Below are positions 22,283-51,876 of a DNA stretch of 64,000 nucleotides, one piece after another. Each line of letters opens with the position of its first letter. The stretch's first letter is position 1. The notes beneath the pieces were generated by a model, which was not told the origin of the DNA, did not search any database, and saw only the letters and a program-made list of their open reading frames with translations. Source of the stretch: Kalaharituber pfeilii (taxonomy: Eukaryota > Ascomycota > Pezizomycetes > Pezizales > Pezizaceae); the NCBI GenBank assembly GCA_015179045.1, contig WHUZ01000002.1, positions 1,984,001-2,048,000 of the forward strand. Reading direction: 5' to 3'. A program made the translations under genes and the position numbers.

Positions 22283-22913
22283 AGGTGAGAACTCTTTGAG
22301 TGGTTTCTGCAATTTGAATGGGAGTAAGATATTGCAGAGAAAGCGAGGGAAGAGGAGAGAGCTTAAGGTGTATTAGAAAAAATAAAACGTTATCAAAAAT
22401 GGATATCCAGGTGAGGAGATGCAAGATACTTTATATATAAAAATTGTAACAACAGGGACCGAAAGAAAAAAGAAAGAAAGAAAAAGCTCAGGGACTTCGA
22501 GGAATTGGTAATTTAGTGTTTGTATACCCCAGAGTTGTTTGAAAGGTTAAATGGATGAAGGTTGCGTGTAGTCAGCTCTCCTAGGCTGAGTGCGATTTCT
22601 ATGGAGATGTAGTCTCATGGTGGGGGTGGAGGACGCCTCACATCTCTTCTGTTGCTTAGTCATGTTTGAAGTCATTTGTATTGCCTTTCTTGGCAGGTCA
22701 AAGGTTTATGGACGGAGGTCAGATATATGTATATCTTGTAGCCTCTCAATTTTGTGAAGTTCGACAAAATTCTGGTATGAATATAGGTAAATAAGGTTTG
22801 GGTAGTTATACGGTGCGCAAACGACACTGCGTGGGGTTGAAGCTGTGCACCCCGCAGCGGCGGGAGATCGACAACGGCGTGCTAGGTTTGAATCAGATTG
22901 ATCTTGGGAGCTT

Positions 22914-22946
22914 TGTTCTCGTGCCCAGATTACGGGTACGAGAACA
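22914..22946. mobile_element. Micro-insertion A, 33-bp near-palindrome with 8-bp direct repeats
   Basis: The element consists of two 13-base arms, TGTTCTCGTGCCC and GGGTACGAGAACA, which pair with one mismatch around the loop AGATTAC. It is bracketed by exact GGGAGCTT copies at 22906-22913 and 22947-22954. The direct repeats look like a target-site duplication. Same terminal sequence as the copies at 25604, 27582, 40313, 49924 and 51448. Confidence 0.7.
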
Positions 22947-23312
22947 GGGAGCTTAAGCAATACTGGTAAGTATGGCAGAGAATATCCAACACAGGAAAAG
23001 AAAAATAAAAATGAAAATTTAGTGCCAGCATAGAATGCAAGGAGGGCGATTGGGGTTGGACACTAATTTTTTTTATCTTGTTGAAGATGTTGGTGTAATC
23101 TTTTTTTTTCCTTATTTCCTTAGATCGTACTACATATTTTGTATTGGAAGTGTACCACCCAAAAGAAGCTTTATGAAGGTCCAGTATATGAGAAAGCATA
23201 TCATAGAATAGTCACAGGGTAAGAAAGAAAAACAAATATACAAAAAAAAGAAAAACCCTTTTATTTTGAATAAACTAACTTTGACACCCATATCTCATCT
23301 AAAGTCCTGATT

Positions 23313-23332
23313 TCTCGTGCCCAGCCTTTTGG
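23313..23332 (+). repeat. Possible seventh micro-insertion copy
   Basis: The sequence tttctcgtgcccagcctttt matches the family consensus (compare the copy at 51448, which also continues into CAGCCTTT). The first bases differ from TGTTCTCG and no convincing flanking direct repeat is visible, so it may be an old copy or a chance match. Confidence 0.35.
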
Positions 23333-23696
23333 CTGCGTGAATTGCATACATCTGGGAAGTGACGAAAATAGAAAAGAGAGGGAAAAATCTGAAATAAAAA
23401 TACAAGGAGGATCACAAAAATAACCCGTCACATTTTACACGCTCATAGACACAGTATGGAAAAAAGGGAAAAAAAAAAGGATGGTTGAGACTCATGCACA
23501 CCTAAAGAAAGCCTTCCAAAAAGATTTGTAAAAAACTTGTAATCGAGGGAAGATATCATAACAAGATCCAAATCAGATAATGAGGTTTGCGTAGGCCGCG
23601 ATAGAGGGAGGGGTACTAAAGAAACAAAAGCAGCAAACATGCGAAACCATGAAAGGACGTCGCAATGCGCTATGGACATTGGAGTGTGAGGGTATT

Positions 23697-24841
23697 TTAC
23701 CACCCCCTCTTTGCAAGCCTCTGTTCCTCAGTTAGCCTTTCGACAGTCAACCCGACCATCGGCTCGCCCAGGTCTGTCGACACTTCTGCGAGGATCTTGG
23801 GGTTGTTGTAGTGTGTGACAGCCTGCCCAGCAAGTACATTAGCTGCTGTGAACCAAGTGGAACAGCCTCAGGATAACACCAACCTGCACAATCGCCTTCG
23901 CCCTCTGCGCCGCGTTCCCACTCTTAAAGATTCCACTTCCGACGAAGACACCGTCGCACCCAAGCTGCATCATGAGCGCAGCATCCGCTGGTGTTGCGAC
24001 ACCACCCGCAGCAAAGTTGACGACAGGGAGACGGCCGAGACGAGCGGTTTCCTTGAGGAGGTCATATGGCGCGCCAATTTCCTTTGCCATGACGTACAGC
24101 TCCTCGTCTGTGAGGCCTTGCGCCTTCTTGATTTCCCCATTGACAGTTCGCATGTGTTTGACGGCTTCGACAATGTCACCGGTGCCGGCTTCACCTTTTG
24201 TGCGGACTAAGTAGACATTAGAACACTGGTTTGTTTAACAAGTGGATGAGATGAATGGAGTGCAACATACTCATTGCCGCCCCCTCTGCAATCCTCCTCA
24301 ATGCCTCACCAAGATTCCTGCACCCACACACAAATGGCACCTTGAAGTTATGCTTCACAACATGGTGCTTATCGTCCGCTGGGGTCAACACTTCGGATTC
24401 ATCGATGTAGTCGACCCCCAGGGCTTCGAGTATTTGGCATTCAACAAAGTGACCAATGCGCGCTTTGGCCATGACGGGGATAGTCACAGCAGCCATGATC
24501 TCCTTGATCAACTTAGGGTCCGACATACGAGCGACGCCGCCTTGCACGCGGATGTCGGCGGGAACGCGCTCGAGGGCCATGACAGCGGCGGCGCCTGCTT
24601 CTTCAGCAATGCGGGCCTTTAGGGTGGAGAGGGTCGTTAGATAGGTGACTCGATGGGGAGGGGAGAAGCTTGGAGAAGAGGAAAGGGGAGGAAAAGAGGG
24701 ACAAATACGAACCTGTTCAGCGTTCACAACATCCATGATGACACCACCCTTGAGCATGCGGGCAAGACCAGCCTTAACGCTGAAGCTGGAGGCAGTGGAG
24801 TTCCGCTCAATTGAGCCATTGACTGGGAGATCGCTTGCCAT
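23697..24841 (-). CDS. Pyridoxal 5'-phosphate synthase subunit PDX1/SNZ
   Basis: The synthase subunit of the DXP-independent vitamin B6 pathway, a TIM barrel making PLP from ribose 5-phosphate, glyceraldehyde 3-phosphate and ammonia supplied by a PDX2/SNO glutaminase. Exons 24713-24841, 24271-24616, 23884-24206 and 23697-23822 give exactly 308 codons (307 residues), the usual family length. Visible blocks: [20 protein letters not shown] with the catalytic lysine (KGGVIMDV), [57 protein letters not shown] and [15 protein letters not shown]. The C-terminus ends RLAKRGW. No PDX2 gene is in this window. All splice junctions are in phase, so the gene appears functional. Confidence 0.97.
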
Positions 24842-25603
24842 TGTATGTGGTTTGTAGTTTGAATTCGTGACTTCTTTTTAAACAGACTATCAACTGTCGA
24901 GTGGGCGAGGAGGAGATGAGTGGCAAGGGCTGGAACTGGTACTGGACGTAGTAGGATCACGGTCGCAAGCTTTCGAAGGTAGTCGGTATTGCTATAATAT
25001 ATATGTCCTCTGTCACAGAGAACAGAAAACCGAAAGTATGAGTCAACAGAATATTCCCCTTCAATGAGCGATTGTGCTAACACAGTCAGGGGGGGGAATA
25101 AGATATAGGCAGATGCACTGGGGTAGTTTATGTAGGAGTTGTTTGCGAAGCTCCTCCCCTTCCTTCTGCCCGCCATCCCCACCACCCCACCAAAAAGTCC
25201 CAACTGGGGTGAAACGAGAAGTGTATTACTCACCACTTCTCACACTCGCTTCTGAAGGACCCTTCTGTATCCTTCAACCTACAAGCTAATCTGGCCTCGT
25301 CGATGGCAACTAAGGGCGCTAAGAATGTTGGAAGGGAAGCTTGGGACGAGAAATCAAAATTGGAGATCTGGGGAAATAGAATACGAACAGCCAGCTTTTC
25401 TTGCGGAGGCAAAAAGGCCGGACAGCCAATTGCAAGCGCTTGGTAAATGTGACTTCACTAGCCTTTCGGCTGGAAGTGGCAATTCGCATCGCGCGACATA
25501 AGACCCTGCTATACTGCTAAGATGCCTAGTCTGGTTTTAAGATGCCTATAGTGGGGCAGAATAAAATCTGTCAAAAAAAAATTGTCACTGAGAGGGGTAT
25601 CAA

Positions 25604-25623
25604 TGTTCTCGCGCCCAGACTCT
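25604..25623. mobile_element. Micro-insertion C, 20 bp with exact 9-bp direct repeats
   Basis: The 20-base unit TGTTCTCGCGCCCAGACTCT lies exactly between two GGGTATCAA copies (25595-25603 and 25624-25632). The first half is the family terminus. Unlike copies A and E it has no clear inverted arm at the other end. Confidence 0.65.
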
Positions 25624-25677
25624 GGGTATCAAATGTGATAGCGGGGTTACACATCGAAATAGATGAGAAAAAAGGGG

Positions 25678-25708
<31 letters not shown>

Positions 25709-25770
25709 AAAAGGAAAAGAATGAAAAGGTTCTGAGCAGAGTCGAAGGCGAAGGCGAAGGCGAAGGCAAG
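25678..25770. repeat. Poly-A tract and GAAGGC microsatellite
   Basis: About 25 consecutive A residues, an A/G-rich stretch, and then four to five tandem gaaggc units. It is simple-sequence DNA with no sign of coding use. A poly-A tail of a retroposon was considered but there is no recognisable body on either side. Confidence 0.7.
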
Positions 25771-26362
25771 AACCTGTGTCCCGATTGTGCAAAGGCCTGC
25801 TGGTGTCTCGTGCGACATCACGATACAATGGGTACCTGATCCCACGCCCACGCTCAAGTCTGGCTCAATCCCCTGTCCAAGCAACGGGGCCCAGTGACAG
25901 GCCTGTCTGTCCCAATCGCATGCTCGTTGACTACCTCATTGCAATGTCATATGCACTGAGACATGCCAGTGGCAGACTCTGCGGAGTACGGAGATGAAGT
26001 ACCCATGAACATCTGATAACCCCGCGCTAGATGGCCCCGCTAAGCCCAGCTGTATCATATCATACATTTAGAAATTTTTCCTCCGGCAAAAGAAACATCC
26101 TTCCGTAGGCCCATAAGCGGCAGAAAATACATACTTATGATACTGGTAGCGCGGGTCCCGCTCCCACAGCTAGGCAGCAGCGCAATGGCAATCGCAATTG
26201 CATATGCGAATGGTTCGGGACGGCTCTTCACGGAATGTATGATAGGGTGCGTGCCATTTACCGCAAAGGGCAAGTGATTTCTTCGTCTGCCAAGACCACC
26301 GAACGGCGCTGTGGGGAACACTACTAGTATCATACTCGAGTACTAGGGTCGTTTCAAAAGTA

Positions 26363-26896
26363 TTGGGACACCTGACTAATGCATAACATGTATTATGCAG
26401 TATCCGGTATGCACCAGTATAGGCTAGCGAGAGCAGCAGTCAATCCACCTACTTTTGCTATTATGGTAATCTGGTTGCGCATTTTCACAATATTTATACC
26501 CGCCATTCCAGCAACCTTTTTGAGGGTCATTTCGGCAGCCATTTTGACAGCCATCTCTATTTGACGGTCGCTTTGGCACGGAGTTTTGATAGTTATTCCA
26601 GAACCTTTTTTTTGACAGTCGTTTCGGCAGCTATTTTATTGGTCGTTTCACACCTGTGTTGACAACTCTCTCTACCCATTCCCAACCGCCATCCCTACTA
26701 TTATTATGTATCTAGTTACAGTGCTGTGCCGTGAATATGCTACTTTGATTGCTGTTTGTATAACTGCACTATGTTCAGGTGTATGTTGCAAGGTGATGGT
26801 AGAGAACTCAAAGGGCTACCGAGTGTTGGGTATCCAAAGTAGCATAATGCATACTGCATTCTACATAGCATATATTATACAAGTCAGGTGTCCCAA
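26363..26896. mobile_element. Tc1/mariner-like non-autonomous TIR element
   Basis: Left end TTGGGACACCTGACT and right end AGTCAGGTGTCCCAA are exact inverted repeats and both are flanked by TA, the target duplicated by Tc1/mariner transposases. A weaker second layer of inverted similarity (ATGCAGTAT / ATACTGCAT) continues inward. The 534-bp body has several degenerate copies of a gtcgtttcggcagc-like motif and no transposase frame. It would depend on a transposase in trans. Confidence 0.75.
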
Positions 26897-27581
26897 TATT
26901 TGGCTGGGTCACGGGATTGTGAGCCACCTGGGTTGAAACATTGGGCACTTCGTGCTTCTTACAACCTGCAATTGATACATATGTGCTATGTAGAAAAATG
27001 ACCCTTCACGTAACTCCACCCTTCATCAGTAGCTATGAGATCCATTACCCCATCCTCCAGGCTTTCTCGATGTTTAACTTTGCATTCCCTCATATATGGT
27101 AATAAAAAAACTCCAAATCCCAATCTCATTATCACAGCTAGAAAACCATAAACCAAATCGCTGTTGAATATCCCATTCGTTTCAAAACGCAGATTAAAAA
27201 AAAGTAGCTCACTATCAAATTCATAGTATATTGGTAGTTTCTGATTGATAAAGGAATTAGTAGAGCTTAGGTATGGGAATCCTGCAACCAGTAACAAACA
27301 TTTGGTGAGAGATATTCAACTTTGTATTTATCCTGGTACGAACCTTCTGAATTATCACATGCACGCCGTCCTCTTTTAGACCGCATAATAAAATGAGCTC
27401 GTAAAGAGAAAAAATTAAAAGTATAAAGACAAAAATAGACTGTTATGGCATCGAGGAGGTATTTCAGTTCCCTGTCTACGGGGAGTATACAAGATGCACC
27501 ACCGGGCAACTTCTCTGTAGCTTATGTAGCACATTTGAAACATACATACATTTTGATGTTTTGTTATTGCAAACACAGCGC

Positions 27582-27601
27582 AGAGTCTGGACACGAGAAC
27601 A
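27582..27601. mobile_element. Micro-insertion F, 20 bp, opposite orientation
   Basis: On the minus strand the unit reads TGTTCTCGTGTCCAGACTCT, differing from copy C at two positions only. The nine bases on each side (ACACAGCGC at 27573-27581 and ACACCACAC at 27602-27610) agree at six of nine positions, as expected for an older target duplication. Confidence 0.5.
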
Positions 27602-28051
27602 ACACCACACTTCCTAGAAAATCCACCCGAATACAAATACTTATAACAAAATTAATGTAAGGGGAAAAAAAGAGCAAAGTACAATACCCTAAGCATCTGT
27701 CAATCAATCTCGTGATCGTCAATCCATTTGTCCACATTAAAGAAAAGAAAAGAAATTGATAAAAGGATACAAAACGGACCTGCAAAACATATGCATCAAG
27801 AGTCATGTGCATTCAATGAAGCAGTAAGGCTAACGAGACTGTGGGACAATATACATGCACTACTACTGGGTGATAACTGCACGGCAAGCAGCAGTGATAA
27901 CATGAGCATTGATTGTTAAGAACATGAAGATAACATAAGCAAGAATAGAAGACGCCACGTTCGAGCAGGTTATGTAAAGGCAGCCAGTACACCATCGGAA
28001 AAGATAGGCCCCAGGGGGTTCTTTGCTATATCGTAATGCCTGCAATGGCTT

Positions 28052-31000
28052 TCATTTATTGCGAGTACTAGTTGTAGGCCTCCCCACCGCTCCATGTTGT
28101 CTGAGCAGGCGAAGATTGACGGAATCGAGCCCTGTCACACCTTGGATGTTTGTATTCATGAGAACGAGTCTGTTCCGGGGTAATGCCCATTGACAGGTGA
28201 GATTCAAGGAGGGCTTCTCCTGTGTGCGGCCGGCCTTGCATTGCACCTGATATAGATGAACTATGTTACCACTACCTATTGTTATCAAGTACGGGGCACT
28301 GGGAATGATGGACCAAGCTAGAGAGTTGACGGAGTGAAGGCAGTTGATGCGGGCCAGCTCTTGGCGTGAGAACAGTGACCATAGCGGCACACCTTGACGT
28401 CGTGGGACTGACCATAGCCGCACAGTGTCATCATAGCTGCCAGAGGCAAGCAGCTGGCCGTCAGGAGAGAAGGTGACAGTATTTACCGAATTGGTATGGC
28501 CCTCGAAGGTATGGATGACCTCTTGACGTGGGACTGACCATAGCCGCACAGTGTTATCAAAGCTGCCAGAGGCAAGCAGCTGGCCGTCAGGAGAGAAGGT
28601 GACACTATTTACCGAACTGGTATGGCCCTCGAAGGTATGGATGACCTCTTGACGTGGGACTGACCATAGCCGCACAGTGTTATCATTGCTGCCAGAGGCA
28701 AGCAGCTGGCCGTCAGGAGAGAAGGTGACACTATTTACGCCGCCAGTATGGCCCTCGAAGGTATGGATGACCTCTTGATGTGGGACTGACCATAGCCGCA
28801 CAGTGTTATCTCTGCTGCCAGAGGCAAGCAGCTGGCCGTCAGGAGAGAAGGTGACACTTTTTACCCAGCTAGTATGGCCCTCGAAGGTATGGATGACCTC
28901 TTGACGTGGGACTGACCATAGCCGCACACTGTTATCTCTGCTGCCAGAGGCAAGCAGCTGGCCGTCAGGAGAGAAGGCGACACTATTTACGCAGTCGGTA
29001 TGGCCCTCGAAGGTATGGATGACCTCTTGACGTGGGACTGACCATAGCCGCACAGTGTCATCATTGCTGCCAGAGGCAAGCAGCTGGCCGTCAGGAGAGA
29101 AGGCGACACTATTTACCCAGTTGGTATGGCCCTCGAAGGTATGGATGACCTCTTGACGTGGGACTGACCATAGCCGCACAGTGTTATCATAGCTGCCAGA
29201 GGCAAGCAGCTGGCCGTCAGGAGAGAAGGCGACACTATTTACCCAGTTGGTATGGCCCTCGAAGGTATGGATGACCTCTTGACGTGGGACTGACCATAGC
29301 CGCACAGTGTTATCATTGCTGCCAGAGGCAAGCAGCTGGCCGTCAGGAGAGAAGGCGACACTATTTACCCACCTAGTATGGCCCTCGAAGGTATGGATGA
29401 CCTCTTGACGTGGGACTGACCATAGCCGCACAGTGTTATCTCTGCTGCCAGAGGCAAGCAGCTGGCCGTCAGGAGAGAAGGTGACACTATTTACCGAATT
29501 GGTATGGCCCTTGAAGGTATGGATGACCTCTTGACGTGGGACTGACCATAGCCGCACAGTGTTATCATAGCTGCCAGAGGCAAGCAGCTGGCTGTCAGGA
29601 GAGAAGGTGACACTATTTACCGAACTGGTATGGCCCTCGAAGGTATGGATGACCTCTTGACGTGGGACTGACCATAGCCGCACAGTGCTATCATTGCTGC
29701 CAGAGGCAAGCAGCTGGCCGTCAGGAGAGAAGGTGACACTATTTACCCGCCTAGTATGGCCCTCGAAGGTATGGATGACCTCTTGACGTGGGACTGACCA
29801 TAGCCGCACAGTGTCATCATCACTGCCAGAGGCAAGCAGCTGGCCGTCAGGAGAGAAGGTGACACTATTTACCGAATTGGTATGGCCCTCGAAGGTATGG
29901 ATGACCTCTTGACGTGGGACTGACCATAGTCGCACAGTGTTATCATTGCTGCCAGAGGCAAGCAGCTGGCCGTCAGGAGAGAAGGCGACACTATATACCC
30001 AGCTAGATAGTTGTATGAAAGGTCTTTCCCCAAATGATATAAGATTCATACGAGCTTTACTGAAGTCTACGTTTCTTAGCCAAGTTTGATACAAACGTAC
30101 CTGCTTACTATAGCATTAGATTGGATGCGAGTGATAATAAAAGAAAAGGGACAAACCTGACGTAGGTCTGCGCCTTGCAGTTGAACACTATCAAACCAAC
30201 CGCCACTTAGATCAGCACTAGGAATCTTTATCCCACGTAAGTCATGACCCACAAATCTTCTGCCAGCTCTCACTAGAATTGTGATTGCATTTGCTGCAGC
30301 TATCGAGAAATCAGAGTCAATTTTAGAGCATTCAAGTAAGTCCAAAAGACTATCTTGCAGTAGACTCGTATATCTCGCTTCTTCGACAATGAAGTCACGA
30401 ACACCGGGATCATCGACCAGGCTGAACTCATTGATAAGTGCATTAGCTTTACGCCGTTTAAGCAACTCATCTTTCCACAGTGCTTCAGCCACCAAATAGT
30501 CCCGAAGTGATTTGTGTAGAAATCTGTATGAGTTCCCCTGCCGAATAAGTGGTGAACTGAAGCGTAATAGCCGTGTTATATCATTATCGGTAGCTAAAAA
30601 GGGTTTCCAAATCGACTGCTCTGGTGCTCTGGTATTGAAATCCTGATTGAGAATGTTTGGGACGTAGGTTGCTTCTAGTGCTTGATGACGGTAAAGTGCT
30701 AGTGCAAATTTTTGACAAAAATTTCGTGCGTGGGAGCTGAAGCCATTCTCGTCTAACTGAGTATATGCTCGGTGCTGAGCATCTGGTAGCTGAATTTTAT
30801 TTAAACGGGCCTGTGCTTGCTCTAGCCACTTATCGATGAATTGTTTATACAATTCTGTGCGCTTGAGCTTGTCTGTATCCAACGTTGGTGCCACCATTAT
30901 GATCATTCTAAGGAGGAATGGATTGCTGATTAGTTCACATATGTCCGGCTTCAGCAAGTACTGCTCATATCTCTCGACTGAAGGGCCAGTAGGATTAGCC

Positions 31001-33251
31001 TTTACGGATCGCGAAATATAGTCCTGGATGCTAGACTTTGAAAAGGGTGCAATCCAGTATTCTTGTAACAGCTGTGGTTGGTTAGCAGGGTGAAACTTGC
31101 TCCGATAGCCTGACATTAAATATTCAGGTCGGCTAGTGATCACAACTTTAGCTTTCCATAGATGAAGTTTATTTTCATCATAAAAGTTGCGCCCCCGGTT
31201 CTCAATTTCATCATAACCATCTAAGATAAATACAAATTGCCGCTGCTCTTGTGCTAGTTTTATTTGATGTTCATTGAATTTTTGACTAGCAAAGTAAGCT
31301 GCTATTAAATCTTGGTTTTGAGCACCCGGCGTATAGGTCCTGAATAGTGAGATAAATAAGGGAATCATAGCGCCTGGTTGATTGGGAGCTTTGTCGTACT
31401 CAGACCATAGCTGGCGAGCAAGGTGGTGGTTGAATGTTGATTTTCCAGAACCAGCACCGCCCTGAATCAGGCAAACCTTTTGTCGCACATCAGACAGGAA
31501 TTTGAGGACAACCTCCAGTAGATCAAAACGCTTGTTGTCATAAGGGTCTGTCATTCCCTCTGTGAGAACATATAGATCGGGCATAAATCCCTCCAATTGA
31601 GATTGATCTAGGTAGTCATTCTTAAGCTTCTCTAAATGCGAATCCAGAGATGAATCCAGAGATGAATTCAAAGATGTTCTGAAAAGTGTTTGATGTTGAT
31701 CCAGTGCTAGCTTTATGTTAACAAGCAATTGATATATTTAAGATGAATACACCAAACGTACTTAGACTCCATAACCTTTCCTTGATATCAGTGGATAGAG
31801 CAAGGTTCGCCTGAAGCAAAGTGTGAATTTCTATTTTTGTTTTTCAGAAATTAGCACCAATTGCAAGATGGTATGAATAAAATCAGCACTCACCGTCAAT
31901 CTTGGATAAAGATTCCATTTCCTTCTTGATATCCCTCAAGTGGCAATCCATCTGTTGAAGCTTCTCGGAATTTTCTACACTTATTAGCACAACATACTTA
32001 TGCAATAATTGAACGTCAGTATAATTTTTACTTACCTAAGATCCTTTTCATGCAAGCCCCATCCGCACACTCCCGGACAACCTTTTCCTTGCTAGATATA
32101 TCGTCAAGAAGTGGCTGCATTGCAACTGAAAAGGGTATGAAAAGAGTCACAACCCTCCGACGCCCTAATTTTGGCGCCTGTTAGCAAAAATCCAAACTGA
32201 CTGAACTAGGAATCGAATATCCTACATGAATTATTGAAGTATTTTTGTACTTCCTCTGCAAAAGCCTTGATTGCAGCATAGAGTTCATCCAGAGCAGAAT
32301 TCAGCTTGAGTTTAAAAGCCTCAGTTGTCAAATCTGAATGCAATGTGACTTCTGACAGTGCAGTCATATAGATGTGGGCATAAAATTCACATGTCGCCAT
32401 CTGTTCAACAATGGTAGCAATTGCCAATTCCAAATGTTCCATTAATTCAAGATTGTTGAGTGCAACCTATTACTACGATTAACTATATCTCCATGTGGGA
32501 GAACATTGAGACTAACCTGCAAAATAAACCTAACACCAGCCCAAACAAGAGCAGTAGTTTCTGGACTATGCTGTATTGCTACATCAACAATTGATGCATA
32601 ATGCTGTACCCCCTTCAGGATCCGTCCTAGCTGCTCTACTACAACAATACGCTCGCCACGTCTGTTGGTGTATTGCCACTGTCGTTTTTTAACATCATCC
32701 TTAGCACACTGTAAAGTCTCAATTATAAGTTCGATATTGCCATGTATTTTATTGCTCTGTAGATTCTGTAGAGGAATCTGAGGCACTACCGAGTGCTCCC
32801 TTGGTGACTGCAATGAACCGATCACGGGGGCAGTAACTGAACATGCGGTTGTTTGCGGCTGTATGGGTTGTACAGACGTCTCGACATTATGCTGCTGCTT
32901 TGGCGAATGCGATGAACCTGATACTGAGTTATCATCCACAGTTTGTGTTTGTGCTAATTGCAGTGGCGCGGGTGGTGCGAGAGCAGCAACCGGGTTCGAA
33001 GAGCCCGAGCTTTGGGAGTGAACCGTATTAACTGAGGGGGGTGCACTACTGGTCCTCGAGTGCCTCTCCGTTCCGACAGGAGATTTGGGTCGCGATCGAG
33101 ATAAGCGCCTGTCAAGTGGGGGAGATAAATTGTCGCTCTTCCTGAAAGATGCTTTTATTCCATATTTGATATCATGCATCACGCCTTTTAAACTCTGGCG
33201 GAGCCCGGGTCCCCCTGCAGGGCCGCCAACAGGTTCCGGATTAGTGGCCAT
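28052..33251 (-). CDS. NACHT-WD40 STAND receptor (fungal NLR)
   Basis: A 1617-residue STAND NTPase of the fungal NLR class, whose characterised relatives act in allorecognition and programmed cell death. Exons: 32517-33251, 32226-32466, 32036-32164, 31894-31974, 31762-31830, 30157-31706, 28052-30100 (1618 codons with stop). Residues 1-160 are low-complexity. About 165-390 form a helical N-terminal domain (HSPETTALVWAGVRFILQ-VALN), similar to DUF7708/Goodbye-like effector regions; this assignment is tentative. NACHT: Walker A GGAGSGKST near 500, Walker B FVFILDGYDEI, then KVVITSRPEYL, and a winged-helix part ending FLHKSLRDYLVAEAL. Pentapeptide-like ADLSGG...GADLRQ repeats precede the WD40 array from ~969: thirteen near-identical 42-residue units plus one degenerate blade, which would make two seven-blade propellers. 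All introns are 50-63 bp. Confidence 0.95.
28360..29998 (-). repeat. 126-bp tandem repeat array encoding 13 WD40 units
   Basis: Thirteen consecutive 126-bp units, almost identical at DNA level, each encoding the frame VNSV-A/T-FSPDGQLLASGS followed by x-D-x-TVRLWSVPRQEVIHT and FEGHTxx. Variation is concentrated at a few codons: the residue after LASGS (N, D, Y, R, F), the one two positions later (N, D, S), the two residues after GHT (NS, RR, SS, RW, NW, DC, SW, GG), and A/T in the first strand. The rest is constant, with single exceptions such as PHQ and FKG. Confidence 0.95.
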
Positions 33252-33957
33252 TGAAAGTCTGATGTCGGAGAGTTCACACAGTTCTATAACAGTTTGAATG
33301 CGAGAGCTTGAGTATGGAAGGAGTTATTTGGTTGTTGATTATAAACGTATGAGCGATGATGGGGGATTGTTTATTCTTGCGATTCTGCTTAACCCCGCAT
33401 TTACTTTTCATGAAGTGGTGATTGGTAAATTCCAGTCCGAAGCCTCACATCCAAACTATGCCTATTTCAAGTATGTACAAGGCAGGGCCAAGTTACAAGC
33501 CGTGCGAGGGGGCTGTGAGTCTGTACCTGACTTTGGGAGCAAAATTCTATGGAAATTCCCGTCAGTAGCTAGGTTCGAGACTGAGTAGCAATATCCAGCG
33601 CGGCCATAACAGCATCACAAATGCCTGCAACGAGTACTAGCCTACCCGTGATATATTTGCAATGCGCTATTCACTTTTTGGAACCGCGTAATCCTTATGC
33701 TAAGAAGAAAGAAACATAAAAGGCTCGTCTTTCAGAGGGACGCTGCCCCAATCATTCGAAAGCTCAAATTGCTTTCGTCCGATCCGTCGGTTTTTGCAAC
33801 GATTGACTGTCTGAATTCCTTCAACCCCGGCTCTGGAAATGAGAGTGATCGGATGAGCCGGTTCTTGTGGGGCAGTTCTCCCAACAAAGCAGCTGCCACT
33901 GCTCTGATCACGGGCATCGCTCAAGCAGCCCGTCTATCGCCACCGGAATCGGTGTAA
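33252..33957. other. Spacer upstream of the NACHT-WD40 gene
   Basis: Presumed promoter side of the receptor gene. Open frames 33298-33588 and 33697-33957 on the plus strand show no domain. The second runs straight up to the AIM11-like segment, but there is no evidence that they form one gene. Confidence 0.4.
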
Positions 33958-34495
33958 TTGGCACTTGTGACCCCTCCAGCAACTACAGTGGAGGATACTC
34001 TTGATGAGCTACCCACAACAAAAACCAAAAGACCCCTACAGCCCCATTCCCGAGTTTGCCTTCGCCGCCAACTCGCACTCCTTATCGCCGGCCCCGTTTT
34101 CCAATCCGCTGCAGTTGTGATGACCCGCACTGTCGGTGCCTTTCCGCTGCTCCTCTCCTGTTCCACTCCAACCAGCACCACCCTCCACACACCCCTCCGG
34201 TGCGCATGAAGCCTTCGAAGCGCTGAACCTCACCACACTCAACCTCATGGCATTCGCAGTCACGTTGGTGGGCAGCAGCATGTTTGCATTGGATGTTTGT
34301 AATGTGGAGGAGTTGAGGAGGAAGGTGAGGGGCGAGGATGGGATGGAGGGAGCTATTGGGGGAGAAATATAGGGAGTTGAAAAGGAAGGAGCAGGCAGCA
34401 GAACAGGAGATGGAGGAGTGGATGGGGGGTCCTGGCAAGGAAGGAATTGAGGGAGAGGGCGAAGAGGAGCGCTGAGGAGCAGAGGGCGGGAGGGA
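33958..34495 (+). pseudogene. AIM11-like gene, broken frame
   Basis: Resembles the Aim11 family of small fungal membrane proteins linked to mitochondrial inheritance. One frame carries CLRRQLALLIAGPVFQSAAV followed by VMTRT (first membrane segment and TR motif). A second, starting no later than about 34190, carries AHEAFEALNLTTLNLMAFAV then TLVGSSMFALDVCNVEELRR (second membrane segment and the usual EELR-KVRG motif). The acidic tail with KYRELKRKEQAAEQEMEEWM lies in a third frame. The stretch between the two membrane segments is readable only in yet another frame (PLLFHSNQHHPPHTPP). No plausible introns fit these short distances, so at least two and possibly four indels separate it from a working gene. 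Sequence error is an alternative. Confidence 0.5.
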
Positions 34496-36689
34496 GTTTG
34501 TAAGATGCTTGCCTAGAACGCAGGGCGTGTGGGAGTGATGGAGACGGGAATATATAGCGGGGAGACAATAATGTGGCTTCAGGACTCGGGAAGCCGGGTA
34601 AGGTGAAAGGCATATCAGAAGCCGGCCTCAAAAATTGGCCCAATCGGGACACGAACACAACCTTGCATCTTATATCATGATTCATATATATACATAGATG
34701 ACAAGTGTATACTACCTCCATTATTGGAATACAGCACTAGACACGATAGAGTTGAATGCCTCGGCATAGGGTCTGAACAGCGTCGAGACATAGGAAGCTT
34801 AAGTGGAGGTCGCAAATTATTTGAGAACATGGATTCACTAGCCTCGTCCCCAGGCGGGCTTTAGTCCTTGGGCACGTGACACACTAGTAATCTTGTTAGT
34901 AAGCAATGAATTATCTTGACCGAGAACCAAACCCTAAATTTCAGCTTATTATATTTACAGTTCTTGGTACATCACGTGATTGTCCGATTAGCTAATCTCA
35001 AGCTTCTGGGGGCGAGGCTATGTGCAACCAACGTCATTTCCAAACTCTCGACAAAACGAAAACTGACTTTCGATGGCTCCAAAACCTGTATTCACGCAGG
35101 ACAGGCCAGTTCAGCGAATAAACAGCATGCTGCTGTGGTCTAGAGTCAGGAACAGCCCAGCATGATTGAGATGTAATGCCCTTGGTTTGCGCTTCTTCCT
35201 CCTTCATCCCAGTCCCTACCGGCAACGCAAGTGTAGATTTGTTGAGCAATAAGAACAAGTTGACTGACTGTCAACAGCTGAGCTATCCTCGAACTGGAAC
35301 TGATCTAACCTCCCCGTATTGGATATAGAAGACATCCTAAGAGGTCACCCATATAATTTAGCCGTAGGTATTCGGATAGGGGTAGCTGTACTTCGACGTA
35401 ATATATGCGTCCAATGTTCGCTTTCTTGACTTGGCCCAGTCTCGAGACTGGACTTCACTCCCATGCCCGTGTGTGTATTACCCACACATCCGCGCCACCC
35501 TCCACATTCCCACACCAAAACCCACCTCTCCACACCCAGCATCATACCCAATAGCCAGGTCCAATCCTCGGCCTTTGGCACAAGAAGATACTGAGTCAGC
35601 CACACAGAATTCTTTGCAAACTATTAAGGAGACACCTGGGATGGGGGACAAATATGTCGTAATGTTCACTCAAATTCGCGAGATACTAAACTCCTCTACG
35701 CACTCCTTATGCGACTTAACGCCTTCATTTAGGAGCCGTTCGTCGAGCTATAGGTGCAAAGCAATGTAACAATTAGCGTTCCACATCATTCCTCACATCT
35801 CATCACTTCTTTACTACTCCTTGCACTTCCTTCTCTGGTCATCTGCCCTTTTCGACTTCAACCCTACATCATCACGAGGGTAAAAGGACAGACTCACCCT
35901 TCTCCGCTTCCTCAAACCTCCTCTCCGCCTCCGTCTTCCCTGTCCACCTATCCCTTTCCCTCTCTTCATCCCCCTCCTTTCTCCCCTGTCATTCTCTACC
36001 TCTATCCTTTCATTACTCAACTTATTCTGCTTCTGCTCACTACTCCTGGCTTCTGGATCCACTGACTTTTCCTTCTCCCTTTTCTTTTTCTTCTTGTAAT
36101 ACGCGAGTCTTAACACCTTTAAGCTTTAGACGGCCAGAGGCCGTGGCAGAGTCATCTGAGACCAGGTTGGGATTGGCGCGATGAGCTCTGGAACTATCGT
36201 GTTTAAAGGTTACGTAAAACGGCGCCAAGACGGCGGTATCTGTGTTCAAGTTGATCACGTGGCATGTCCAAATTTGGCTACATTGTTCTCACCAGGCAAC
36301 TACGGTGGGTTATGCCAGCACCAAGGGTTCCTCTAGGCATTTTACTTCTGTACTAGACCTATAAATCTCTCTACAAGCGTAACCAGTGACGGACGGGCAT
36401 ATGCTGTTCAGAAGGTGAACGAACTAGTGCGTATCTCAGTTGAAAATATGCTATTTCATCAAATACTAATAACTTGAGAGGAAGATTTTTAGGAAAACGA
36501 TGGCAGCACAAGTATTGCTTTTCATATTCCTGCAACTCAGAAGAGAATACGGCAAAAGTAGCTATCAATGCAAGATTTCTCTAGTGGCAGTAACAGTATC
36601 ATATATCTCGGCACTACTACTCTTGGTAGTAGTGCTAACATATAGGCAGTGACATAAACTCCATTCATAATGCATGTGACTATGTTGGA
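34496..36689. other. Spacer without recognised gene
   Basis: Contains AT-rich and pyrimidine-rich stretches (35780-36100, long C/T tracts) that create overlapping open frames on both strands without domain content. Nothing could be assigned. Confidence 0.45.
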
Positions 36690-38853: not shown

Positions 38854-39708
38854 TGGTGATTTCGCCCGGGTCTTTCTGGTAGGGCCAATCAATCAGGAAA
38901 GGCACGCCTTGCAATTACCGTCAACTGGCCTCCAATCTCGATTTCTAATACTCGAATGGGCCTGATCTCGATTTGTCAAAGCTTGAGAGGCTAGAAAATT
39001 TTAGTCTGATGCCCGACTTGTCAGCTCTGACAGTTCCAACAGACGCGGCTCGGTAAGTGTGTAAAGACCAAGTTAAGATGAGGCTGGAACGCGCGATTGA
39101 ATAAGTCTAGGTAATATGCATATTTCAACCCAAGGGCTTGGAACTACACTAAACCGATAAACGACTAAACAGAGAATTAAGCGAGCCGATCTGATACACA
39201 CAGACGCCCCCAGATCTCTGAACGAACCATGGTACCGGTACCGCCAAGACAAGGAATATCATACAGTCTAACCTTGATATCCTCTGATTCGGATATTCGG
39301 ACAACCGTTTCCCATACAAATTGCCCGGACGCCCTAACCATACCGGAAACCTCCAGACAAGTACCCCCTGTCTCCATACAAATATGATAATATTTGCTAT
39401 ACCGGACACGCTAATACCAATACATCTTAGCCTACCCCACTTTACCACTTAGTCTGGCTGTTTACCACTCTGTTGCCGTCACTGCTACCACTACTACTAC
39501 CATTACTGCTACTAATGGTTAGACTGTATCTCTGAAATAACTAAATGCCTGAGTGCGCAGAACACAGATGACAAAAGCTGGACCGATAACACAACAGAGC
39601 TACACAGAAGGATAATAAATATCAACACAGTTTACGAGATAATACCAGAAAGGTGCTCAGTGAAGCACTGGGTATACACCATATCAGCTAGTATTAGGTA
39701 CAATGTGT
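38854..39708. other. Spacer, probably decayed retroelement DNA
   Basis: Short frames only. Lies between an LTR-like repeat and a gypsy integrase tail, so part of it may be degraded retrotransposon sequence, but no RT or protease motif is visible. Confidence 0.35.
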
Positions 39709-40052
39709 GTACTACCGATCGAGCTCGTTCATTCGGCTTGGCAAATTATGAACAACGGCGAATATACTACTGAAGAGCTACTGGCAGCTCGAGCCCGACA
39801 ATTGACCCAGCAAATCGATAACCTTGAAGCCGCGGCAGAAAACTTTCGGGAGTAGAAACACAAACAAATGAAATACCGACGCATTCGCGCAGCCACTGAC
39901 CAAATAGAATCTGGGAACTTAGTGCTAGTCTATAATACCAAGCTAGATAAGTAGCACAGACAAACTGGCGAATCGATGGGCAGGCCCATACAAGTGGTTG
40001 ACATGTTGGAAGGGGGGTGGTACAGGATAGCCGAATTGGATGGGACTTGAGG
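39709..40052 (+). pseudogene. Ty3/gypsy polyprotein relic, integrase C-terminus
   Basis: A single frame with four or more stop codons reads VLPIELVHSAWQIMNNGEYT, TEELLAARARQLTQQIDNLE, a KYRRIRAATDQIESGNLVLV segment ending VYNTKLDK, and PIQVVDMLEGGWYRIAELDG T. This is the usual end of gypsy-type integrases (from the PIELV motif to the chromodomain-adjacent GPY/F-like module ending in L-D-G-T). The rest of pol is absent nearby. A degenerate remnant. Confidence 0.8.
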
Positions 40053-40312
40053 CCGTTGAGCCCCGTTCACGTGATCATCCATAGATCTCGAATAGATGAT
40101 GTTAATTCGAGATGATGTTGATGACCCCGGTCGCCAATATTGGTCCCAATCTCGCGGGATAATATGCCAATATAGCGATTACGTTCCTACTTTCAAATCC
40201 AATTCATAGGAATTCCATAGGGAAAAGTGATACAATCCAATATCGAGAATTGAACTTCGTTCACAAATTTCTGTGCCAAACTAGCAATAAATATATGAAA
40301 TTGAAGACAACA

Positions 40313-40327
40313 CTGGGTACGAGAACA
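40313..40327. mobile_element. Micro-insertion D, 15 bp, opposite orientation
   Basis: On the minus strand the unit reads TGTTCTCGTACCCAG. It lies between AAGACAACA (40304-40312) and AAGAAAACA (40328-40336), which agree at eight of nine positions. It is the shortest copy of the family, some 300 bases beyond the AROM stop codon. Confidence 0.6.
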
Positions 40328-40624
40328 AAGAAAACACACATACATACATACATGCATATACACGCAAAACAAAAAACTAAAATAAAATAAAAAAATTAAA
40401 AAAATCACCACCATCCTTCTCTCCCCAGTTTCCTTTTTCTATTTTGGGTTTTGATATTCCAAGGTGGATCAAACCCCGAGGGTACTTTAAACTCCCGTTA
40501 ACCGAGGCAAATGTGTACAAGTTCAAGCTTGTGAATTGTGTTCCTGAGACTGGATCTACAATACAGCATGTGTTCGAGTAAAACATAATGGTACCATCAC
40601 AATTGCACAACTGAATTTTGCTTT

Positions 40625-46156
<5,532 letters not shown>

Positions 46157-47005
46157 ATGTCATCCTCCAAACCCACAGCTTCAAGCCCTCCAATCCCAGC
46201 CCCCATCACTCCCCACCGGTCCCGCCATCATGCTCTTGGCCACTTGGTCGCGGCCTCGCACCTGCTCGCCGCTAGCTCCCCTCCCATCGCTGCACATCTC
46301 ATGTCGAGATTCTATTCCTTGCTCTTCAAAAAAGGAATCAACCTGCCAAAGAATACCGCAGCGGGAGCATGTCCAAGGTGTGGTGGGATGTGGGTGCTAG
46401 GGTGGAATTGTTTCGTTGGTGGGGAGGGAGACGGTGGTAGAGGGGGGAGGGTGGTGAAGCGAGAGCGAGCGAACCGGAGGAGGAAGAGGGGGAAGGACAG
46501 CGGCGGCGGGGTAATGGGGGGGAGGGTAGAAAAGGAGAATGGAAGGCGAGGGGAGGGAAGGGTGGAGTGGGTTTGTGACAGATGTGGGGTGGGTGTGGGG
46601 AAGGGGAGCGTGGGGAGCGGCGGCGGGAGGAGGAAAGGGAGGGGCAAGGGGAAGGAGGATGGCGAGAGTGGACTGCTGCTGGCGCTGGCGCAGACAGTAG
46701 GGGAGAAGGAGAACGCTGCGGGGTGTAAGGACAGCGGGAGTAAAGAGCAATGCACCGAAGCAGCCCGGAAAACAGAAGACTCTACAGCAAAGCCAGCACC
46801 TGGTCCTCCATCCGCATCAGAGCCCCCAAGAGCGGAGCTGGAAGTATCCAAACCCCAAAAGAGGAAAAAGGCAAACAAGAACTCCTCCCTGCAGGCCATG
46901 ATTGCAGCCAAGCGCGAGAGGGAGAGGGCCACCGTGAGTGGGGCGGGGGATGCGTTGGCGGGGATGGATTTGATGGATTTGATGAAGTTGGGGGTAGTCA
47001 AGTAG
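46157..47005 (+). CDS. RNase MRP/RNase P subunit, SNM1/Rpr2/Rpp21 type
   Basis: Predicted zinc-ribbon protein component of RNase MRP (rRNA processing) or RNase P (pre-tRNA 5' processing). It has 282 residues from the ATG at 46157; an upstream in-frame GTG is disregarded. There is no intron. The family signature is clear: HLVAASHLLAASSPPIAAHL, MSRFYSLLFKKGINLPK, then zinc-binding pairs CPRCGG and CDRCGV, with the VLGWNC motif between them. A long, basic, glycine/arginine-rich insert separates the two cysteine pairs. The C-terminal half is lysine-rich (KPQKRKKANKNSSLQAMIAA) and ends with a short MDLMDLMKLG helix. SNM1 is favoured over Rpr2 because of the length of the tail, but this cannot be settled here. 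Confidence 0.8.
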   Translation: MSSSKPTASSPPIPAPITPHRSRHHALGHLVAASHLLAASSPPIAAHLMSRFYSLLFKKGINLPKNTAAGACPRCGGMWVLGWNCFVGGEGDGGRGGRVVKRERANRRRKRGKDSGGGVMGGRVEKENGRRGEGRVEWVCDRCGVGVGKGSVGSGGGRRKGRGKGKEDGESGLLLALAQTVGEKENAAGCKDSGSKEQCTEAARKTEDSTAKPAPGPPSASEPPRAELEVSKPQKRKKANKNSSLQAMIAAKRERERATVSGAGDALAGMDLMDLMKLGVVK

Positions 47006-49518
47006 TAAGTGTGGGAGGATGTGTGGGCGATAGATGAAGGGTTGGACATATGACCTACCTTTTTTTTTTTTACGTATGAACCTGTGTACGATGCTAGATA
47101 ATGTGGGTGCTGTGTCCGAAATACCTATGCTCTATTAATGTTTTTGAATCTAGCATATCTTATTTTCTCTGTTTACTCTATCTTTTTGACATAGTCTCGA
47201 ATCAGACGGCCAGGTTTGTTGCAGCCCACTTATCCCACTACTAGTAGTCATTGCAAGTACACAGCATAAAATGTTGACCATGCGCATGAGGAATGGAGAT
47301 TCCATATCTCCAGCAGAAAGAGCGGCAAGCATCTGCTCACCCAACCCTTATACAGCCGCGCTGCATCTGCTTTGCGCTTCGACGGCCCCCGCTCCTGCCC
47401 CTCGACCGGTATGAAAGCGCCGGTTTCCCTCCCGTGCCTGGTCGCCTTCCTCAGCCGCTCCAGTAACCTTGCTCTCCCCACGCCTCAAGCAGATCTTATA
47501 GTATGTAGGGTAAGTTCCAGTCTCCTAACCAGGGTAAGTCCCCAGGCCGCAAAGCTTATTTTGCGGCAGTGTGATCTACACAGCACTCGCAGACTCAGAG
47601 AGTATCCGGACATCTGACCAACGACGGCGTTCCGGAGATGAAGAATAATGTGATGGAAGGAATAGAAGCGGAGGGAGGATGCATCGGATAAGGAACCAGA
47701 GGCTGGATAGGATATTTGTACCGGCTCCGGAGCATGCACCCGAGCGACAGAAACAGCCCATGGAAATGTCATGTTGACAACCTGAAGTATGGTAAGTATG
47801 ATAGGAATTTCCTTTTGTGGTCATAATTGAATTGTTATTGATCATGTACCTTCCTTAATATGTCCTGCACTCCGTGCAACGATCTATTTCTGTACATTCC
47901 TGTGTTTCTGCACATTCCAATGCTTTTCTACACTTCCAATAGTCTCGCGTGCATTTTCCTACATCTTTTTCTCTGCCATTTCCCGTTTTCATTGCCTTTC
48001 CACATATCCATTTGATCTTTCAGTATTATGTCACTAAGCTGCGCTTGTTGAACCTGATATATTGCTAAGGCCCTGTTTGATTGCAGTAGGTCGTACCATG
48101 TAGTTTAGACCTAGCATCAGTATGAATGGCCAAGGCGGGATACGACGTAAGAGGTGCAATTGGAACTGGGGAAGTGTTTGTTTGCTACAATTTGACTACG
48201 TACCTACAGATATGCAGTGCCAAAAAAAAATCAACTTGAAGGTTCGTTTGCTACATTCGCATTGTGCAAAGAAGAAAAAAAAAAAAAAAATTTGGATCCC
48301 GCGGCCACCAATTTCCAAACTTGTCAATTGCAGCTATTGCATTCGGAGCCGAGGACATGTCCCTGATACAGCAAATCGCTCGCCTAGACCCAGTATACTA
48401 TGCACTCGTGGTCGCCGCCCGCCCAGATGGCGACTACCGGCAGATTTCCTTCCTGTACTATGAAAGCCGTCCTACCTGGGGACTATACATTCTTTCAACA
48501 CTTGGATCTAAATATGAGGAGGTATATCGAGTGTCAACGAAGAATGAACAGAATACAGACGCCCCTCACTCAGCAAGAGACCCCGACCAACTGCACAGTG
48601 GTACTGCCAGGATTTTACAGATACATGGTCGAGTGGTGGGGGAAGATCAAAGTTCAAGGGCACGACATTAATCCTCCTTCTGCGGGGAGGTCAGGACAGA
48701 CAAGAATTGGCAACCCCACTCGGACTCAAGAACATGATGGAAAGACGCACCGAACGGACCGAATCTACTTGCGAGAAGACAAAAAACAGTACAGCGACTT
48801 AGTTCCAGCAGTATGTGGTACTGGAGATATTCGTATCTCTAGACCTGAATACTACATGGATCCTCAAGCAATAGGGAAGGGCGAGCTGAATTAAAAAGGT
48901 GGTTTGTCAATCCGTGGTTTGTGGGAATACAAGGAGACCACAGCACTCTCGATATTCCTGAGTCAGGGACCTAGGAGACACTTAGCGCCGCACACCGAGA
49001 CCTTACCGCCCTTAACAGAACAACTTCCGGGCAAAACAACATACATGAATTTCCGGAGGAGCGCTTTGCTGGGCCTGTAGCACTGAGAAGTATCAGTGCT
49101 CTCTCCGATGCGTTGGTAGGGGCGAGAAGGTGGACTGAACCGGATGTGTTGGAAGAGAGAGATTGGGCAGTAATGAGGTAGCCGCCTGGGAGTACATCCA
49201 GAAGGTGAGAAAACGACTGTTGGCGGCTTGGATAGAAGGGTTCGAGAAGATACAAAGGTGAGAGCAAGCTGCCTATGGGGAAAACAGTTATTTTCGGAAG
49301 ATTGAATTGGAAGGAGACTTGAGCCGGTTAGCGAGGATGCACCTAAACAGGACATTGCTGAAGATGAAGAGATTGAACGGTGATTCTGTGTTTTCTGCAT
49401 TTTCATTTCAATTCTACCTTAACTCTGTTCTTTTCCTTGATATTGCTGGATCCGCGGTTGACTTGTTTCCCTATTTCCTTGCTTCGGACTTGGTGGTCAG
49501 GGACGACGAGGGGACGAA
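47006..49518. other. Spacer with unassigned frames
   Basis: A minus-strand frame at 47248-47481 contains RARLLERLRKATRHGRETGA followed by FIPVEGQERGPSKRKADAAR, which looks coding. With neighbouring frames (47485-47772) it might form a multi-exon gene, but I recognise no family. Overlapping plus frames at 48264-48894 lack domains. An A-rich stretch lies at 48271-48290. Confidence 0.4.
47248..47772 (-). CDS. Possible hypothetical protein, exon model unresolved
   Basis: Not recognised. The frame starting at 47772 (MTFPWAVSVARVHAPEPVQI) and a second frame with LERLRKATRHGRETGAFIPV could be joined by an intron near 47480-47530 (gtaagt-like sequences occur around 47510 on the plus strand only, so the donor is not clear). 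The second frame is basic and free of stops for about 60 codons. No signal peptide, membrane helix or known motif. Treat as tentative. Confidence 0.25.
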
Positions 49519-50040
49519 TGTGGTAGGCGGCGCGCCTAAGTCACATTAACCGCGCTGATACTGAGCTCGGACGCCGCAGGTCACGTGGGGTCATAGGCTA
49601 TGGTTCTTGTACACACAGTCAGGGTAAGCCTGAGGGCGTGGGAGATGCTAAAAAATGATAAGTCTGGCAGCGACTGATATAAGAAGGGTGCCCTTTGTAC
49701 ATGTCATTTCATTATTCGTCTTCACCTCTCATCTTTATCTTTCATCTTTCCTATTCACTGTTTATTCATTCATCTGTTCATACTCATTTTCCATTACCTT
49801 CAACCTTTCCACAGTTATGTCTTTTTAATATTGGTTTCTGCACTTGCTATACTATACAATCAAACAGCTCTCGCTCGCACTCAGTAACCTCCTCCTTTCT
49901 GCTACCTGATACTGCCTTCACTTTGTTCTCGTGCCTGGGCACGAGAACACCTTCACTTCCTCCTTTGCCCAGCGATCTCCCAGCAGAGGGCCCAGTGCGT
50001 AGAGTATTGGAATTAGGCGCAGCGCGCCTCACGCTTATAA
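49519..50040. mobile_element. LTR-like dispersed repeat, copy 2, interrupted
   Basis: Second copy of the repeat at 38388-38853. It shares the TGTGGTAGGCGGCGC start, the tcacgtggggtcata segment, the TATA-like gatataagaag, the CATCTTT tract and the end acgcttataa. It carries micro-insertion E at 49924-49949, which is absent from copy 1. Differences between copies are scattered substitutions and a few indels. Confidence 0.6.
49924..49949. mobile_element. Micro-insertion E, perfect 26-bp palindrome with exact 9-bp direct repeats
   Basis: Arms TGTTCTCGTGCC and GGCACGAGAACA are perfect reverse complements separated by TG. Exact CCTTCACTT copies flank it (49915-49923 and 49950-49958). In the first LTR-like copy the corresponding place reads gataccgccttcacttcccc with a single CCTTCACTT, i.e. 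the empty site. This is the clearest proof that the unit is an insertion. Confidence 0.85.
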
Positions 50041-50099
50041 CGTACTTAAAATGTCTCTGTAAACCAACCAAGTAAGCTAATAATATGTTGAGACCAACA

Positions 50100-50670
50100 A
50101 GGGGAGCGTTCAATTGCTTCTTCAGAATGCCCTAGCTTCAATCGGCGGATTCCAAGCTTAACCCCGAGTTCGATAGGCATGGTGTAGATGTTTTTTGGAT
50201 ATTTCAGTCTTTTACATTCCTTCACAATAGCTGTCGTTGAATTGTCTAATTTTTCCCACTCCCGATCATCACCCTAGATTTGGTCCTAAAAAGTATTATT
50301 TGCATGGCCCCAAAGCCACCTTCCAATTGATTTTGTCATGCTTACTGCCTTATCCCATCTCTTTTCTGATATATAGAGTTCCACGAGAATGATCAGATTA
50401 GGCTACCCAAATCCTTCACGCTCTCCAAGGTCAATTGATTGATAACGCTGAATACTATGCTCATTAGGAAGCAGCGAGAAACTATCTGCTACTTCGTTCA
50501 ATTTACCAAGCTTTTTGTTTAATCCAGCGTTTTCATACATGGTGGTATTATCGTCTGAATTAGCTTATAATGCACGATTGTAGCAGTAGATAGCTGTTTC
50601 GTTCGGGCCTTCCTGATCGATACTTATTCCTGCACACTCAAGCCACAGATGAAAATCTCTTGGCCTGCAG
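50100..50670 (-). pseudogene. TFC4-like relic (TFIIIC tau131 TPR region)
   Basis: A single minus-strand frame with only three stop codons in about 190 codons reads PRDFHLWLECAGISIDQEGP, NETAIYCYNRAL, then LGKLNEVADSFSLLPNEHSI, LIILVELYISEKRWDKAVSM, GDDREWEKLDNSTTAIVKEC and TMPIELGVKLGIRRLKLGHS. This follows the TPR region of the TFIIIC subunit Tfc4/Sfc4, including the GDDREW motif and the IELGVKLGIRRL segment. Upstream (50680-50880) the complement is acidic, as the region before the TPRs often is. No start or full length is present, so it is a partial decayed copy. Confidence 0.6.
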
Positions 50671-50879
50671 TGCGCTGCAGTGCGCTTCCTCTGCCCGTTG
50701 TCTCTACCCTTTGCCCTTTGAATCTATGGGCTGCTTGTCATCAATGTCCGAAACCTCAGAAAATTCATCTCTATTACAGAAGCGTTAGTCACAAGTATCA
50801 TGCATGCATATGTTTGCAAACGCAAATCTTTCTTCTAGGTATCCAGCCTCAGATGTTTCATCTGAGTTAGAATAATCAG

Positions 50880-51876
50880 TCTTCATCATTATCATCCATG
50901 AAGCTATTGTGATCATATCCTGTGTCATCAAAATCATTGATATGTGCTTGTTCCTAGCAATTACTAGATTCCATACTGATGGTGCGAATATAGAGTAGGT
51001 GTATTGTACTCGAGTACACAATTTTATGAAGCAAGTATACAAGTGTCTCTGGTCGTAGCACTTACGGCAAGAGTACTTACCTGTTAGTAGTCTGTTTGCC
51101 TTAAACGGTCAGGTGCTAATATGCCAAGACCTTTAAGGTACCGTATCAATATGAATTTTACAACCTATCATATGATGGATGGTTGGTTGGCATACAGCAG
51201 GGGAATGGTGCTAGAACTGAATGAAGCAGGTTAATGCACAGTGAGATAGCCACACCTAGAATACTAGCCTCCATCTCAACCATCTAACGCCAGGTTCTAA
51301 AATTCAAAAACATACGGTATGGGACGACCTCATCTGTAGCACCCTGTTTCTCATAACCTGCGACAGGATTTGTTTGAAGGGAAAGGCACTGAATGATAAA
51401 CAAATATATACAAAAATTGGGAGAAGTAAGTACTCAAGGTAATAAATTGTTCTCGCACTCAGCCTTTGTAATAACACTGGGCAAGAGATCAATTCTGAGC
51501 ACGTAGGTATTCGGTACTCATGTGCAGGATTTCGGGGGATGCTTGATATGCACATAATAGGAAAATCACAAGACGGGCAGAGAGCTATCTATACAGGTAC
51601 TACTAATACCACAGTTGAAACAAAATCAATGCTAATATAATACCAAACATGCTAAAATGTCACGAATCTGGTTCGAGACTGCCTTTCATCCCACCTCAGA
51701 CACTAATCATTATCACTCAATATTATTAACACATACCAACCCTTGCTCTTCAATCTAAACCCGCCGCTAGGTATGCACTAGTCAAACGTACAGAATATAA
51801 TTAGTGTAAGCTCGAGGATCTCGATATTTGATTCAGGTGCCAAAGCCTGCACTAGATACCAGACGATTTTCCAGAT
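50880..51876. other. Spacer downstream of the V-ATPase gene
   Basis: AT-rich, no gene recognised. Contains micro-insertion G at 51448-51467. Confidence 0.45.
51448..51467. mobile_element. Micro-insertion G, 20 bp
   Basis: TGTTCTCGCACTCAGCCTTT between GTAATAAAT (51439-51447) and GTAATAACA (51468-51476), seven of nine positions equal. The unit has the same length as copies C and F and the same first eight bases. Confidence 0.55.

Follow-up and report, generated by a model that had tools for sequence, protein, structure and literature searches.

The window, a 64-kb stretch of the genome of the desert truffle Kalaharituber pfeilii (C112:1984001-2048000; assembly of 78 Mb in 360 contigs), contains 13 open reading frames of at least 250 aa. 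A V-ATPase subunit is encoded in it, with its best named match in Peziza echinospora (82%), and on the minus strand, at 28052-31728, adjoining open frames carry near-identical WD40 repeats and an NTPase-like region (NACHT-type by eye), like fungal NLR genes. The window also holds six very short units which an earlier note had described as micro-insertions between direct repeats of 8-9 bp, and all six were found at the positions claimed:

Unit A, 22914..22946, plus strand: 33 bp, two-ended remnant with the inverted-repeat core at both ends, the right one with 2 mismatches; flanks GGGAGCTT/GGGAGCTT, matching at 8/8 bp, or at 8/9 when a unit length of 32 bp is assumed.
Unit C, 25604..25623, plus strand: 20 bp, one-ended, ACTCT end type; duplication GGGTATCAA, 9/9.
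Unit F, 27582..27601, minus strand: 20 bp, one-ended, ACTCT end type; duplication weak, 6/9.
Unit D, 40313..40327, minus strand: 15 bp, one-ended, TA (left) end type; duplication 8/9.
Unit E, 49924..49949, minus strand: 26 bp, two-ended remnant; duplication CCTTCACTT, 9/9.
Unit G, 51448..51467, plus strand: 20 bp, one-ended, with a variant inner sequence; duplication weak, 7/9.

None of the six lies inside the 13 open frames, a comparison with whole frames that does not separate out introns and UTRs. A second inverted end is present in A and E and absent from C, D, F and G; unit E is readable as 15 bp from one end joined to 11-12 bp from the other. If at most 2 mismatches are allowed, the window has 11 occurrences of the core against 1.39 expected, and 0 of 100 shuffles reach 11. 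When the window was scanned with relaxed settings, which allowed the core at most 3 mismatches and the 9-bp repeat no more than 1 at lengths of 13-129, eight rows were returned: two for A and two for E, which are found on either strand, one each for C and D, and two probably due to chance. The same scan gave 0,0,1,2,0,0,1,0,0,0,0,0 rows on twelve second-order Markov controls. The duplications of F and G are poor evidence taken singly (binomial probability at a single fixed offset ~0.01 and ~0.001, respectively); the length of both, 20 bp, is the commonest one-ended length among the sites read.

Across the genome the core, TGTTCTCGYRYYCAG, has 863 exact matches (439+424), compared with 0+0 for a reversed-pattern control. 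The earlier figure of thousands per genome is thus too high for the exact core, a count in which two-ended copies appear twice and which leaves decayed copies outside. Direct repeats were scored at 234 distinct sites in all (in stages of 194, 213 and 234), a non-random sample made up of 99 of 100 listed core matches together with sites picked by four sequence patterns and by a host-repeat search. Sites less than 30 bases from the start of a locus or less than 60 from its end were dropped before counting, as were repeated 70-base contexts, and seven later loci, read by eye, stand outside the counts. At 75 of 194 distinct sites the best 9-bp direct repeat within 130 bp had at most 1 mismatch, compared with 3/193 in a shifted control, for which the 9-mer was taken from 40 bp further upstream, and with 3.9% of 3000 random positions. 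At the other 119 sites the best match within 130 bp carried at least 2 mismatches; some of them represent one end of a long element, and others may be decayed or unrelated. Palindromic pairs (TGTTCTCG-N4-34-CGAGAACA) occur at 39 places genome-wide against 1 in the control. By eye, the duplication was 9/9 in 7 of the 15 such places read (L015 and L019, both counted here, represent one locus in two copies), 7-8/9 in 5 and absent in 3. For one-ended units of 20 bp, the 213-site stage gave 15 distinct duplications that were exact, 23 with at most 1 and 26 with at most 2 mismatches. At 1 mismatch or fewer about 0.02 would be expected per length (0.023, by a uniform-base count) vs the 23 seen at 20 bp, and the runners-up among one-ended lengths were 21 bp (5) and 15 bp (4). 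The duplication is 9 bp and no longer: the next outward base matches in 2/15 of the distinct exact 20-mer cases. The micro-insertion family is confirmed as real.

The core forms the terminal inverted repeat (TIR) of a DNA transposon, 15 bp long and reading TGTTCTCGTRCCCAG. Paired ends with exact 9-bp duplications bound long elements of 3840, 5778, 5990, 5088 and 4868 bp (L145, L164-L167), and the search for a longer element with these ends, which the earlier note had called for, was also answered by two larger copies:

Long copy 1, C2:425047-434347, 9301 bp: TGGCGAGGT on both sides; includes L147.
Long copy 2, C57:69524-81809, 12,286 bp: GGTCTAATC on both sides; includes L144; middle unread.

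Among the four stretches L144-L147, no end pair lies within L144, L146 or L147 itself, and L146 is assigned to no element. Both large copies contain a DUF6589 match, at C2:426452-427582 in the 9301-bp copy and at C57:70950-72086 in the 12,286-bp copy. In a Pfam scan of 3 proteins, DUF6589 was matched at E 1e-67. The genome has 34 DUF6589 match rows, of which these two lie inside the end-bounded copies, ends having been examined for these two only. Pieces of a RecQ-type helicase were found in the 9301-bp element (Helicase_C 1.9e-16, RecQ_Zn_bind 7e-7, in L147), a reading that covers this copy, ~6 of the 12.3 kb of the second being unread; L164 has a DEAD-helicase fragment (1e-8). By eye, comparable ORFs occur in L165-L167. 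A third protein of DUF6589 elements, the 9.3-kb one included, was seen in two copies (L184:1525-2787, L144:4011-5669) and matches no Pfam family. In the 3840-bp element, which has no DUF6589 ORF, L145 carries a nested reverse-transcriptase fragment and a tandem-repeat stretch. For the DUF6589 protein itself, a profile search returned 4 proteins, none of them new, no PDB sequence matched at E up to 1, and an AlphaFold model built from 5 sequences reached pLDDT 37, too low for use in a fold search. D248, D431 and E618 belong to a large set of columns that do not vary across 5 DUF6589 sequences, which is a lead only.

It is very likely that the micro-units derive from this DUF6589/RecQ transposon, as non-autonomous remnants. 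Internal deletion accounts for the two-ended units (MITEs), which range from 21 to ~100 bp, and since long elements exist, the first option of the earlier note, a TIR transposon with 9-bp duplications of which internal deletion has left the ends, was essentially right. The Mutator-like origin suggested alongside it finds no support. Mutator-like elements also make 9-bp duplications, but the truffle elements have DUF6589 and a helicase, with one nested reverse transcriptase, and no MULE domain was found in the long-element ORFs scanned with Pfam (8 ORFs, then 3 proteins). A new class of micro-mobile unit, also suggested, is not needed, the one-ended 15- and 20-bp forms with exact duplications being notable all the same. 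MITEs are usually far larger than 15-26 bp. The two-ended units, including A and E, resemble them in being short, non-coding derivatives of a coding family with inverted ends and duplications, whereas the one-ended units of the truffle lack a second inverted repeat.

AcademH DNA transposons reportedly were treated by Kojima in Mobile DNA in 2020. Because its two large copies hold a DUF6589 match and the 9301-bp one also has RecQ-type helicase pieces, the truffle family looks AcademH-like, membership being a lead. Both are fungal TIR transposons with a large gene lacking a MULE domain and with an SF2-type helicase, the occurrence of AcademH in fungi and its helicase having been described (PMC10799480). 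They differ in that derivatives of 15-26 bp are absent from the passages on AcademH in that paper, and the likeness is one of inverted ends, large gene and helicase.

Where a one-ended unit stops on its inner side depends on the type of end. In the 9.3-kb element the left end is of the TA type (TGTTCTCGTACCCAG) and the right end of the ACTAT type; L164-L167 and a ~59-bp palindrome have ACTCT ends on either side. The inner end lies mostly at 20 bp in the ACTCT type, at 15 and 60-72 bp in the TA type and at 33 or 51 bp in the ACTAT type, with ACTAT inner ends at 34 and 44 bp seen only with 2 mismatches. There are five 15-mers among 47 TA-end sites, four of them exact, and unit D is one of the five. 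Counts over the whole genome point the same way: 102 of the 224 ACTCT ends (TGTTCTCGTGCCCAGACTCT) continue as CTTR and 122 otherwise, some of the latter being other long variants (e.g. ATTGG), vs 122 of the 142 ACTAT ends (TGTTCTCGTGCCCAGACTAT) that continue as TA and 20 otherwise; this contrast is rough, as the extensions are of 4 vs 2 bases and point mutations are counted as stops. The ACTAT sites read were partly picked by a 29-base pattern and so could include no 20-mers, a bias of which the genome counts are free. One stagger common to all end types is ruled out by the end-type counts. Longer one-ended units whose duplication has 0 or 1 mismatch measure 33, 38, 44, 46, 51, 60, 66, 69 and 72 bp, and one of 22 bp was seen by eye at L228. 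Some two-ended units join 20 bp from one end to a fragment from the opposite one, with a length of 27 bp at L086 and of 31 bp at three places, of which the one read, L016, has a 9/9 duplication.

On balance we lean towards the one-ended 15- and 20-bp units being scars of excision and repair, a step that we infer. The transposase would take the element out by a staggered cut, so that a stretch of 15 or 20 nt from one end remains on the flank, and this 3' tail of fixed length would be ligated across the gap to the recessed strand, giving duplication, 15 or 20 bp, and duplication again. We favour this reading because a tail of fixed length is expected to produce both an exact outer duplication and an inner end at a set position. 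The sharp inner ends support it, with a fixed tail between duplications at 20 bp and at 15 bp, while other lengths occur too. As the inner end falls at 20 bp in ACTCT vs 15 bp in TA ends, and ACTAT mostly runs on, a lineage-specific stagger must be assumed. The one-ended units of 22 and 33-72 bp in turn call for a second route; those of 33-72 bp may reflect a refilling of the gap that was interrupted near hairpins. Short refilling could be favoured by the element's own RecQ-type helicase, which is a guess. It is chiefly the dependence on end type and the occurrence of longer one-ended units that speak against one simple stagger.

In Drosophila, the Bloom helicase homologue acts in repair after P excision. 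This homologue is named in a review of P elements (PMC7776569), which also gives a 17-nt staggered cleavage inside the ends. A fixed-length tail of one end between target duplications would be the scar expected from P-type excision. The two cases differ in that P makes 8-bp duplications, compared with 9 bp here, and in that the lengths here are 15 and 20 by end type; the likeness drawn is one of cleavage geometry. For P and THAP9 elements, deletions in the flanks are reported from assays of excision (PMC10983969). Unlike these, the counted units keep both duplications, and the counting itself selects for intact duplications.

A dispersed repeat of ~0.7 kb (L070 and relatives) bears on the alternatives, as it holds two insertions, a 59-bp near-perfect palindrome (site 1) and a 20-bp unit (site 2). 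The search for it scored 40 of 1095 candidates and gave 120 matches, from which 20 loci were fetched. Site 1 is informative about interrupted gap repair or decay in place, in which an end would be copied back, synthesis would halt at hairpins and the tract would be joined across, with no staggered cut. The palindrome is present in some form in all 18 rows, and in L012 it was cut from 59 to 43 bp in place with both duplications intact. L019 is longer, L126 lacks part of the right end, and in L125, L127, L129, L130 and L138 the right duplication is mostly or wholly gone. Shortening in place is thus observed, and hairpin modules, judged by eye, stand on either side of several inner ends (left 60-72 bp; right 44 and 51 bp, both 44s with 2 mismatches). 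Three two-ended units of 35 bp (C57:930286, C223:1528004 and C316:219672, one of them differing by one base) are consistent with loss of the DNA between two GGCACG repeats within the palindrome; like the 43-bp form, they look like products of ordinary microhomology or in-place deletion. However, none of the 18 rows at site 1 became a 20-mer, which disfavours an origin of the 20-mers by decay of the 59-bp palindrome. A random deletion would not end exactly at the duplication, and the 20-bp peak sits inside a stem, where halted synthesis alone leaves it unexplained. For the short units we consider this route rather unlikely.

Site 2 supplies the comparison of occupied and empty sites that the earlier note had proposed. 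Among 19 readable paralogous loci the 20-bp unit is present in 7, with GGCCAGTCC on both sides (degenerate in L125), and absent in 9, which have one such word; 3 are unclear. The 7 occupied loci are copies of a single insertion rather than 7 events, and since GGCCAGTCC-like words recur in that stretch, the empty-site case is slightly weaker. No full element is present at site 2 in any of the 19 loci, so the step from element to scar is unseen there. Units that move themselves, as one-end fragments that the transposase captures and then inserts while duplicating 9 bp of target, would account for this pattern and for 23 different duplications around units of the same length and nearly the same sequence at 20 bp. 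On the other hand, a single inverted repeat leaves the transposase without a second end, and a part of exactly 20 bp also occurs inside two-ended units; we regard independent mobility as unlikely. That the units are 5'-truncated retroposon tails sharing one 3' end (CGAGAACA), as the earlier note also proposed, would fit the one conserved and one variable end of the one-ended units, but full elements carry the inverted ends at either side, show duplications of a fixed 9 bp and contain matches to DUF6589 or a helicase, which makes it highly improbable. Chance repeats in non-coding DNA, with which F and G singly are compatible, are refuted for the family by the 863 vs 0 core matches and 75/194 vs 3/193 duplications, and their probability is negligible.

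Returning to excision scars, a more specific form of the idea is possible, and we put it forward tentatively: an AcademH-type transposase may cut the non-transferred strand at a set distance into the end, 15 or 20 nt according to lineage, and the RecQ-type helicase may keep repair short, so that the scars, possibly hundreds, would make up a genome-wide archive of cleavage geometry. If the scar reading is true, genome sequence by itself would suffice to read the cleavage position of an uncharacterised DUF6589 family, and P elements would not be alone in cleaving with a long stagger. DUF6589, a domain of unknown function in Pfam, is now placed within elements that have inverted ends and are flanked by target duplications. 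A caution also follows, in that indels of 15-30 bp in fungal genomes can be transposon products. Finally, the repeat with its nested palindrome and 20-bp unit should be useful for dating insertions.
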